Shown: piece by piece, positions 16,136 to 54,503 of the stretch | Numbering within the stretch: position 1 is the first letter of the stretch | Layout of the letters: the number at the start of each line of letters is the position of its first letter | Origin: Mesostigma viride | Lineage: Eukaryota > Streptophyta > Mesostigmatophyceae > Mesostigmatales > Mesostigmataceae | Direction: 5' to 3' | Assembly: GCA_009746045.1 (NCBI GenBank) | Contig: RPFO01000038.1 | Span: forward strand, 473,596 to 537,595 | DNA length: 64,000 nucleotides | The notes under the pieces: generated by a model | Databases searched by the model: none | The model's input: only the letters and a program-made list of their open reading frames with translations | What the model was told of the DNA's origin: nothing | Program-made: the position numbers and the translations under genes

Positions 16136-19100
16136 CTACAAGATAGCCTGCAGGTCGGCATCCTGGCGGGCCAGCTCCAAAAGCATGGGATCGTCGAAGA
16201 ACTTGTTGATGCTGACGTCCTCGCTCATGCCCTGGCACCGCCAACAGCACAGCCAAGCAGTACACAGGGTGCAGCAGAGTACACAGACATGTAAGAAACG
16301 GAGAGCAATCAATAATCAAGCCAACCCATAGAAGAGTCAAGGGCAATGCATGTAGGGTATTGACGTAACCCCCGAAATCGGGATGTGAATATGGTATTAT
16401 TTTTCGATTGGCTATACCTTCAGGCAAATGTGTCTGGCCCGGATGAGCCATGAACCAAGCATAAGCCTCATTCCATCTATGAAAGCAGTTTTCACCTGAC
16501 TGTGGCGCTTGCGTACCCACCATAAAAGGTACCCGACTGCACTCTTACCAGCACTTACACCACGCTCAGAAGTCCACCCTCAAGGTCTATCCAGGGTCGT
16601 CCAGGGTCAACTGTGACATTACCTCTGATGACCCAGCGTCCTGTTCACCTGCTCGAGTCCTCTAGAGTAGCATCACCTATGTTTGCACCCCTCAGACAGG
16701 GGCCACAGGCGTTAACTACCATTGCTAGCATGCAAGGTAGAAGCCCGCAGGTGGAGGTTATTGCCCCTGAGGATAGCAGCTACACTACCGCCTCGTCTGC
16801 CACTACAGTAGAGGACAGCTCAGATGAGGATTATATCCCCCTCTATTGACTACATGGTTGGGGCATGATGCAGACGATACTTGTATCTTTCGTGTAATTA
16901 TTTTTTCTAATGAGATTAGCACAGTACTCAGAGGCATGCCCATGCGCATGACACGCAAGTATTTACTTACAGACGTTTACATGCAGGGAAACGCCAAACA
17001 CATGCTAGCGTGGCCTTCAACAACATAAATCACGTGCTCCACACACAGAGTGCTACCAAGCGTGTTATAGGCTTTGGGGGGAGGGGCGAAAGGGCTAGAG
17101 GGCGAATTGGTGGGAGGACGGACATGCTTGGGGTGCCAGTGGAAGAAAGGCGAGAAAGTCGATGTCATGGACATGGTAGGGACGGGGAAACAATTACTAA
17201 GCATCCGAAACTCCCACGCCAACGCACCTTGCGGCGCCGTGTCTTCACCAGGAACTCTCGGGCCAGGTGCTGCACAGGGGCTGGCTCCAGCGGCCTCAGC
17301 ACGATGCCCTGGGATAGGGGCAAGGCAGGAGCAAGGCAGAAGCAAGGGAGGAAGCAGCAGCCATGGAGTAGGGACATGGCCATGGCCCCCCAGATCCAGC
17401 CGTTAGAAAAATCAAAGGCCACGCGAGGTAGTAGCAACTGCCGCCACACGTGCGATGCGAGCTGGCCACAGAAACACAAGAAACACCGGACAATCTCTAC
17501 AACAAGGAATCAGCTAGATGGCACTGTGTACCCGCACAGGCAGTCTCTGCCCCTGCTCCCTCGAAATGCTCACCACACTACATATACCCTCCAACGACTG
17601 CCCCTCCAACAAGTACTCACTAGTACTGCAAGTTCAATCCGACATTATCGGTGCTCTCTTAGTCGTAAAAGCTTTGCTGGCAGTTGTCCCACCATAGGTG
17701 GCGGTAGCACGAGAAACTTGCCTGAAACTCACTCCACTAAGGGTGAGCACGGCGCATCCAACTCCACCAACACCAGCTTCATCACCCAACGCTCCCCCCC
17801 TCCCCTCCCTATCCCTTGCTCCAGGCAGCAACATGAATGGTTGCATACGGCCAACAGCCGCTCTGGCCACTTGTGCACAGGACCCACATGCAAGGCTGAA
17901 GTATCCATCGCGTGTGCACGCACGAAGCTACCTTGATCTGAAACATGTCAACAAGGGGTCTCCCCCACAACAACACCATTTGCCACCCCCTCGCCTTGTC
18001 GAACGTCATCTGGCACCAGCCCAGGGGACGGCATGCCTTACTTGGCGGTGTGAATGGCATCATCACTTACTCATTACTGCTAGCTGCCGCCCCTCACCTT
18101 GTCCAGCGGGTCACCCGGCACGATGGACCAGTGGTCAAACACGGAGAGGCAGAATGCTTGCCCCTGCGTGTGATACCTCAGGTCGGTCTCGAAACCAAAC
18201 GACTCGACCACGGGCAGGAACGCCTGAGGGAGGGCGCCCAGGTGTCAATGGGGGCGCAGGAGAGGATGGAAACTTGCCGTTAAGAAAAACGACAGTGGTG
18301 AGGACCCGGTTCCACGCGGCAAGCCAACACGGGGCGTCCGCGCTGAACAGATCTGGTGACTGGTACGCAGATGCATCGTGGTGGAGATGGTCCGATTGGT
18401 GGATCGCGCACCTGACCGTATCACGCCAAGGAAGGCTATCGAAATCTGGACAAGCCAGTCCCCAGGCTCATCGCATGATGCATAACCACCATCGCACACC
18501 GGGTCCCAGGTAAAAAACTGCACCACATGGATGCGCCAGGATCATTAGCTTCCCTATCTGGTTCATGAGCACCAAATGAGATCAGCCATTACCCTCAAAC
18601 TAGTCTAGAAACGATGGACTTTTCAGCCCGGAAACTGAAGCCTTCCACGAACGTGCCTGCCTTGCCCATATACCAACCGATGGGAGCGCGCCTACCTTGA
18701 CGATGTAGATGGGCGTGCCGGGCTTGGGCACATCAGCCGTCACGTGGCCGCGCCGGCGGGAGAGCACGGTGTAGATGGCGGACATGCAGTCGGCGGGGGT
18801 CTGGATCTGGGGCACACAGGAAGGGGGGGAGAGGTGTCAGGTGGTGGCGCCAGGGAGCGTAGCCAGGGGAACAGACAGGTGGCGACATCGGGTGGCACAG
18901 TAGGATGGCACGATGACGGCAAAGGTGCAAGTCCGTGCGTGCCGATGGGGTGAGAAGGGAATGAGGGTGCACCACCTTGGCTCCAGGGCTAAGGAATGAC
19001 AGCAACGTCTCATTGTCACATCTGCTGTCCCAAATCCAAAGTGCCACTTCTACTAAAAACAAAGACAACCAAACACGGCTAACGTGACAGGCTGCCGTGT

Positions 19101-54300: not shown

Positions 54301-54503
54301 TTGGCTGCTGCTCGAGCGCTGACGCCGCTCCTCACGTCCCGGTCCCGGCTGCTGGCGCCGTCACCACGCCCGCGTGAGGCGCTAGCGGGGGACTGCGTGC
54401 CCCGCCTCCCCGAACAACGCGGCGTGAGTGGCCCGGCGAGCAGCAGCGTCAGCGTGCGCAAGGGGGGAACCCCTCCACCAGCTTGGCCGCTTGGCTCCGC
54501 CAT
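45304..54503 (-). CDS. Protein with two cyclic-nucleotide-binding domains
   Basis: Likely a soluble cAMP/cGMP sensor; no kinase, channel or cyclase domain is visible. Exons 5' to 3': 54503–54268, 52429–52384, 51574–51415, 50261–50099, 49386–49178, 48641–48023, 47596–47451, 46717–46491, 45603–45542, and a tentative last exon 45367–45304. All junctions are GT–AG with matching phase, giving about 643 residues. The start (MAEPSGQ) is a best guess. Exon 3 carries TPHEERTPHDIGIITDIVRA, a common lead-in to the first domain. Domain 1 (about 116–232) has a proper phosphate-binding cassette: FGEL (190–193) and RTA (202–204). Domain 2 begins at about 236, is interrupted by a Ser/Pro/Gly-rich insert of roughly 215 residues, and resumes with GDHFGEHEVLHRRRHFG, which lacks the Arg-Thr/Ser-Ala element and is probably degenerate. 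The last exon would give an Arg/Gly-rich end. Confidence 0.82.
45617..45656. repeat. Poly(G) tract at a 3' splice site
   Basis: About 38 consecutive G on the plus strand. In the gene's sense it is poly(C), ending about 11 nt before the acceptor of the exon at 45603–45542, so it works as an extreme polypyrimidine tract. Confidence 0.93.
46098..46490 (-). repeat. 43-bp array of exon-end plus donor copies
   Basis: Donor-like units start at 46141, 46184, 46227, 46270, 46313, 46356, 46399 and 46442, each 43 bp apart, and the true donor GTAAGC is at 46490–46485 in the same register. A partial unit lies at 46098–46140 and older ones near 45945 and 46010. Each unit holds the last 20 or so bases of the exon (encoding QKWEAYK) and about 23 intron bases. 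Units alternate between GTTAGC and GTAAGC donors, giving an 86-bp higher-order repeat. Confidence 0.97.
47331..47366 (-). repeat. Donor echo of the exon at 47596–47451
   Basis: About 27 of 36 positions match the exon end and donor at about 47449–47484; spacing is 118 nt. The shared core on the plus strand is ACCCATCATG followed by ACATCCA. The echo donor reads GTAGAT. Confidence 0.65.
49900..50098 (-). repeat. Decaying donor echoes downstream of the exon at 50261–50099
   Basis: Degenerate copies of the exon end plus donor occur near 50050, 50016, 49972 and 49905, each with CC-ACCT or CTCC followed by TGCC-CCAT-type sequence. Likeness falls with distance from the exon. Confidence 0.65.
50281..50490. 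repeat. (GGGC)n, (GTGC)n and related tracts
   Basis: A (GGGC)n run passes into a long (GTGC)n run and then GTGTGC and GGGT variants, beginning 20 nt upstream of the acceptor of the exon at 50261. Confidence 0.95.
51083..51197. repeat. 13-bp minisatellite CTTACACCCCAAC
   Basis: About nine tandem units with point variants, in the intron downstream of the exon at 51574–51415. Confidence 0.92.
51318..51348 (-). repeat. Donor echo of the exon at 51574–51415
   Basis: About 25 of 31 positions match 51410–51440, which spans the exon end and its donor; spacing is about 92 nt. The shared start is CGCACCTGTC on the plus strand, so the GTGCG donor is kept. Confidence 0.75.
51640..52270. repeat. GGGGGA/GGGGA tract
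   Basis: About 630 bases of runs of four to nine G separated by A. Sense strand of the surrounding gene is C/T-rich. Gly/Glu and Pro/Leu reading frames here are artefacts. Confidence 0.95.
52960..53300. repeat. Degenerate 35–40 bp repeat, ATAATGGTTTCATATTGGCA
   Basis: About nine units built on ATAATGGTTTCATATTGGCA with frequent one-base length differences in A, T and C runs. The indel pattern looks more like uncorrected sequencing than divergence. Confidence 0.85.
53560..54267 (-). repeat. 50–55 bp array of exon-end plus donor copies
   Basis: The exon at 54503–54268 ends (plus-strand view) CTCACCTGCGACCCAAAGCCG. About twelve further units downstream repeat this string with small indels, linked by TCCTGACTACCCATCTCCCA. 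The unit therefore contains the donor GTGAGG and about 20 exon bases. Confidence 0.88.

Follow-up and report, generated by a model that had tools for sequence, protein, structure and literature searches.

Degraded copies of exon ends and 5' splice sites in the downstream introns of Mesostigma viride genes

Results

Genes and repeats in the window

The window, the whole stretch of 64,000 nucleotides that was analyzed, covers positions 473596-537595 of contig C1901 in a Mesostigma viride genome of 440 Mb. The published assembly of this alga is reported to measure 442 Mb, with a mean intron of 1142 bp and repeats accounting for 30% of the intron space (PMC6947507). The SNU114 gene (16136-35258, minus strand) was modeled with 25 exons by a gene finder and corrected by hand; the model holds a single stop codon among 1006 codons. 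Its protein is 99% identical to an independent Mesostigma protein, P0001, with 92% covered, and the two agree from exon 4 on. As the P0001 sequence is identical to the model across the junctions from exon 4 onward, the annotated donors of SNU114 are the first copies, and not the degraded copies (hereafter echoes) described below. The window also contains a cyclic-nucleotide-binding gene that carries PF00027, and exons at 69-6630 (minus strand) and 11120-13820 (plus strand) that we take to resemble a TRIP13/PCH2 ATPase and an exostosin-type glycosyltransferase. A reverse-transcriptase-like peptide, repeated at 41612-41779 of the window and at about C1901:592559-592852, is presumably a LINE-type remnant. 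Two stretches that are alike by eye, one in an SNU114 intron (31205-31492) and one upstream of the gene (35637-35882), are bounded by inverted repeats, have a core of GGAT microsatellite, and look like a small inverted-repeat element.

Exon ends recur in the introns of SNU114

The original prediction was that degraded copies of exon ends, 5' splice site included, occur in the intron that follows. For each exon, the final 40 nt served as a probe that was aligned to the intron directly downstream and, for comparison, to other introns. For the 24 donors of SNU114 the mean score was 11.96 in the own intron vs 8.76 in other introns, and six of the donors outscored all 23 other introns by at least 4 (exon ends 33046, 31733, 21908, 21381, 20703, and 19541). 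The recurrence is thus confirmed in SNU114, and likewise in the wider sample below. The donors were scored on a model with small frame errors at two exons, which were corrected afterwards. At the acceptors, 2/24 outscored every other intron, with a margin of 1.

All echoes of SNU114 lie on the minus strand, and their coordinates are approximate to within a few nucleotides. Exon end 33046 is followed by an echo 45 nt into the intron (32987-33022, 30/36 identical) and by a second at +136 (32888-32947, 45/61 identical), both with the GT kept. The echo of 31733 at +110 (31599-31666, 59/69 identical) has CT in place of GT, and another is found at +583 (31147-31194, 41/50 identical). Two echoes of 21908 lie at +58 (21830-21866, 27/37 identical) and +115 (21785-21810, 23/26 identical), and one of 21381, with the GT lost, at +68 (21303-21335, 26/33 identical). 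Exon end 20703 recurs at +100 (20590-20628, 33/39 identical) and, without its GT, at +221 (20476-20515, 31/41 identical). The echo of 19541 at +95 (19424-19475, 47/52 identical) has an open frame that the gene finder took for an exon. Nine SNU114 exons had been named as cases, and six of these hold on the assumption that the exon numbers of the prediction equal ours minus one. At exon end 18098 the echo at +103 (17982-18031, 37/51 identical, GT lost) is marginal, as its 40-mer scores 13 and another intron reaches 14, and the echoes claimed for 24466 (score 10) and 23062 (score 11) are unsupported.

Echoes and arrays in the cyclic-nucleotide-binding gene

The five cases named in this gene (minus strand) were all seen, three of them with limits. 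Exon end 51415 is echoed at +94 (51297-51346) with 40/53 positions identical, but in the exon-only test one other target reaches an equal score. For 47451, with an echo at +118 (47308-47363, 42/60 identical), an overlapping target scores higher. The claimed exon ending at 54268 was missed by our gene finder and adjoins indel-rich sequence; Tandem Repeats Finder and the echo alignments place its end and donor in about ten units of 51 nt (53778-54286). Exon end 50099 has its echo at +40 (50029-50086, 41/58 identical). From inside the exon ending at 46491 starts an array of 43/86-nt units (46105-46516, Tandem Repeats Finder) that repeats the exon end and donor, with echoes identical at 49/52 positions.

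The repeat arrays at 52940-54290 of the window show many single-base indels, possibly those of unpolished long-read sequence.

Donor echoes outnumber acceptor echoes and are confined to the junction

The sample was widened with the cyclic-nucleotide-binding gene, further genes of the window, and exons from the adjoining 200 kb, giving 58 donors with those of SNU114. This part was not blind: the 200-kb exons were selected by eye for protein-like translation, and the donors of the cyclic-nucleotide-binding gene are in part those named by the prediction. A further 34 donors come from five GTP_EFTU-family genes on other contigs, which were selected before any echo search, and the last gene added, of the SNF2 family, contributed six donors and six acceptors. 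One of the first 92 "donors," at 48055, lacks a GT and was kept in the counts; matches of 18 of 18 were self-matches and were disregarded. A gene finder retrained on the neighboring 200 kb was rejected as noisy and the SNU114-trained one was used instead. Estimates of exon extents under lenient gap costs were rejected as well, as the alignments ran into noise. A piece of a 4.4 Mb contig (L034, C1402:2159500-2169499) in which no multi-exon gene was predicted was left out; it is AT-rich with a bacterial-type EF-Tu start, and may be an organelle or bacterial insertion or contamination. On contigs C530, C602, C802, and C2103, eight sites share an equal EF-Tu match score and a 426-aa open frame, in both orientations, and are perhaps copies of organelle DNA.

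Every other target was beaten by 13/58 donors vs 4/58 acceptors in the widened sample, and by 8/34 vs 1/34 in the GTP_EFTU-family genes (P = 0.027); none of the four window donors in the genes at 69-6630 and 11120-13820 did so. At an own-intron score of at least 15, echoes were found for 24 of the first 92 donors (0.4 expected) and for 4/92 acceptors (0.3 expected). The SNF2-family gene reverses the order, with acceptor echoes at 4/6 and donor echoes at 2/6, which brings the totals to 26/98 donors vs 8/98 acceptors (P = 0.001). Acceptor echoes, absent from the original prediction, thus exist but are rarer than donor echoes, and genes differ in this respect. In the SNF2-family gene (reverse complement of L035) the acceptors at 2801, 5051, 5741, and 6998 have upstream echoes, often several, in which the AG is mostly kept; those of 6998 read AG/GTAAGAG, resembling a joined acceptor and donor.

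Controls were drawn from 68 introns with both flanking exons modeled, in which 20/68 exon ends matched the downstream intron and 7/68 exon starts the upstream intron. Exon segments 40-80 nt and 80-120 nt from the donor never matched the downstream intron (0/57 and 0/33), nor did segments 40-80 nt inside the acceptor score (0/55). The wrong polarity was equally empty, for exon ends against the upstream intron (0/55) and for exon starts against the downstream intron (0/57). In this set, therefore, only sequence at the junction shows the likeness, and only to the intron on its proper side. The prediction was to be given up if exon ends matched their introns no better than interior exon segments; they matched better, and it is not refuted by this test.

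Unit, spacing, and likeness of the echoes

Across 30 echoes (the set of 33 used for the GT survey minus those at 34726, 7973, and 8384) the exonic part has a median of 30 nt and the spacing a median of 101 nt (quartiles 78 to 132), a wider spread than the 33-118 nt originally given. At the threshold of the GT survey, where the weakest alignments are uncertain, the copy holds both sides of the junction at 33/91 donors. The freshest single echo lies at about 7815 of L019, where the gene has AAA-type helicase domains; at +67 it matches 48/49 positions. Its aligned lengths of 19 + 51 against a spacing of 67 make it a tandem duplicate with about 3 nt common to its ends. Arrays that start within the exon were found at 46491 (43/86-nt units), 54268 (51-nt units), and in an EF-Tu-like gene (L032, multiples of 37 nt). 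For older echoes the remainder of the unit was compared in 14 of 15 cases, one being too short; at 21381 just 7 exonic nt aligned. The remainder is still alike in 5/14 (shuffle P at most 0.03) and no longer aligns in 9/14, some of them with well-kept cores, so that we have to assume later insertions in the spacer or the copying of shorter segments.

The identity of the exon part ranges from 60 to 100%, as steady birth and decay would give. Likeness had also been said to tend to fall with distance from the exon, which was not borne out (rho = -0.12, P = 0.53 for the 30 echoes); among eight introns with several echoes the relation is negative in four, positive in two, near zero in one, and undefined in one.

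Conservation of the GT and of the coding frame, expected of alternative or decoy splice sites, was not found: the GT is kept in 22/33 echoes and lost in 11/33, and mismatches at codon positions 1, 2, and 3 (36/295, 46/295, and 50/288) show no bias (P = 0.26). Identity is about 78% on the exon side and on the intron side alike, and 12/28 alignments of exon parts contain gaps. Several echoes have an open frame, and the gene finder took these for exons. Judged by their sequence, the echoes give no sign of service as donors or coding exons.

Comparison of donors with the intron interior

Copies within introns are also frequent away from the junction, as 160/819 interior intron 40-mers have a downstream copy. 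Donor-spanning 40-mers exceed this rate (26/68, odds ratio 2.5, P = 0.0009), whereas acceptor-spanning ones do not (8/68). In complex sequence only, the figures are 12/38 for donor-spanning vs 42/475 for interior 40-mers (odds ratio 4.8, P = 0.0002) and 5/46 for acceptor-spanning ones, so that the excess at donors is about 2.0 to 3.6 fold depending on masking. Exon-only probes differ weakly from the interior when unmasked (20/68, P = 0.06), and the stretch from 25 to 45 nt past the donor shows no enrichment (12.6% vs 10.9% in the interior). In a masked scan, the most similar copies occur at 5/58 donors vs 3.3 expected (P = 0.16) and weaker copies at 25/58 vs 5.5 expected, two similarity classes that are not fully comparable because the scores of junction probes cannot exceed the copied length.

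Simulations of uniform duplication with frozen exons gave donor/interior ratios between 0.6 and 2.1 when the lowest threshold was used, vs 4.5 in the masked scan, and part of the donor excess is therefore unexplained by them. Either intron copies vanish faster than simulated, as hinted by the comparison of unit remainders, or copies are gained or retained at a higher rate at donors. Acceptors are frozen on their exon side like donors and yet stay near the interior rate, which would fit a partial intolerance of a second acceptor. An annotation-free search for words enriched in duplicated blocks, dominated by a few satellites, found the donor word GTGAG 14 times vs 41 expected. This argues against a general association of donor words with close duplicates, but is given little weight because arrays were not counted once each. 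Anchoring of the copies on the donor, as originally proposed, thus agrees with the overall donor excess and less well with the echoes at acceptors, the many interior copies, and the lack of a clear donor excess in the most similar class.

Discussion

The echoes described here are, in our judgment, somewhat more probably than otherwise what remains of short tandem duplications with a splice junction inside the duplicated unit. Evidence for such duplication comes from the near-exact duplicate at +67, the arrays that include the exon end, and the lack of copies from deeper in the exon. Copies confined to the junction and its proper side fit such an origin, because a tandem copy adjoins its template, and exon sequence can enter the intron only with a template that extends over the junction. 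The proposal that introns lengthen in this way keeps that part, and its anchoring on the donor is retained only partly.

Under this explanation the introns of this genome would hold many tandem duplicates, and a duplication wholly inside an exon would be selected out. When a duplication spans the donor, the second copy, comprising exon end, donor, and intron start, would fall within the intron; the first exon copy and first donor could still serve, and splicing would presumably tolerate the duplicate. Under selection the exon copy would hardly change as its counterpart in the intron decays, and the duplicate would stay recognizable for longer than one in which both copies change. Duplicates across the acceptor are found less often, plausibly because an upstream copy of the AG is more prone to splicing. 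The donor excess beyond the uniform-duplication simulations could reflect either of the two causes named above. That excess in the masked scan (25/58), the unit remainders that no longer align in 9/14 echoes, and the SNF2-family gene, where acceptor echoes exceed donor echoes, are the evidence against tandem duplication across the junction.

The same excess raises the alternative, which we hold only tentatively, that donor junctions are mutational hot spots, where short segments of the junction are copied into the adjacent intron more often than elsewhere by some process connected with transcription, splicing, or repair. The higher rate of copies of donor-spanning than of interior or acceptor-spanning 40-mers, overall and in complex sequence, and the shortfall of the simulations argue for it, and the unaligned spacers of 9/14 echoes would suit short displaced copies. 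However, the most similar class lacks a significant donor excess, intron positions 25-45 show no enrichment, and displaced copying should take exon interiors too, of which no copy was found (0/57, 0/33). That the echoes are functional, as spare or decoy donors or as alternative exons under selection, appears improbable. Their presence at about a quarter of the tested donors, the open frames called as exons, and cores that outlast the adjoining sequence could be read in this way, but a GT was lost in a third of the 33 echoes, codon positions are unbiased, gaps interrupt many exon parts, and the annotated SNU114 protein ignores the echoes.

Tandem genomic duplication is described as an accepted route of intron gain (PMC3443670), so that the echoes might be relics of intron birth from duplicated exon sequence. 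We regard this as very improbable: the copied segments hold the intron start as well as the exon end, which implies that the intron already existed, and the echoes are found some 100 nt downstream of the donor, not at the acceptor end. Least credible is that the copies stem from misassembly of repeats in long reads. Indels are indeed abundant in the arrays near 53-54 kb, both by eye and in Tandem Repeats Finder, but most echoes occur singly, have diverged, and have unique sequence between them and their template, and SNU114 is open through 25 exons.

In a duplication that straddles a junction, one copy is under selection and the other decays, making its age readable from a single genome. If the rate in our small sample holds genome-wide, M. 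viride would give very many dated events, which could measure the lengthening of introns, the tolerance of second donors and acceptors, and any preference of duplication for splice junctions. A bolder reading, to which we give limited credence, is that donor-biased copying, by mutation or by retention, keeps adding junction copies to the 5' part of M. viride introns while selection holds the exon copy constant, leaving a genome-wide, datable record of intron growth.

The kind of event is already known, and what seems unusual is its striking frequency in this sample together with a donor bias that is not fully explained. Among the open-licence PMC papers listed in our searches, no title or start of an abstract dealt with copied exon ends in the introns of Mesostigma. 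That introns can arise by tandem duplication has been reviewed (PMC3443670) and reported in Drosophila (PMC2891723). As outlined in these papers, the gain of introns by duplication of AGGT-bearing exon segments likewise overlaps coding sequence and duplicates splice motifs. It creates a new intron, however, whereas in Mesostigma a pre-existing intron had its start copied; the hallmark of such gain, one exon segment present as a copy at either end of the intron, was not observed, the echoes lying near the donor end. Introners, like echoes, are repeated sequences tied to the introns of many genes, and the paper on introners makes no mention of Mesostigma (PMC9860276). They are described as mobile families common to different genes, in contrast to echoes, each of which resembles its own exon and, in our tests, no intron of another gene. 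In human paralogues, tandem repeats at exon-intron boundaries are reported to alter introns (PMC2812944); like the echoes, these repeats are of minisatellite size, cross the exon-intron boundary, and change the intron. That report concerns 27 intron modifications in recent paralogues, with repeats that vary in copy number and are spliced out or kept, whereas the echoes of Mesostigma are mostly single, old, and degenerate, and occur at about one in four of the tested donors of one alga.
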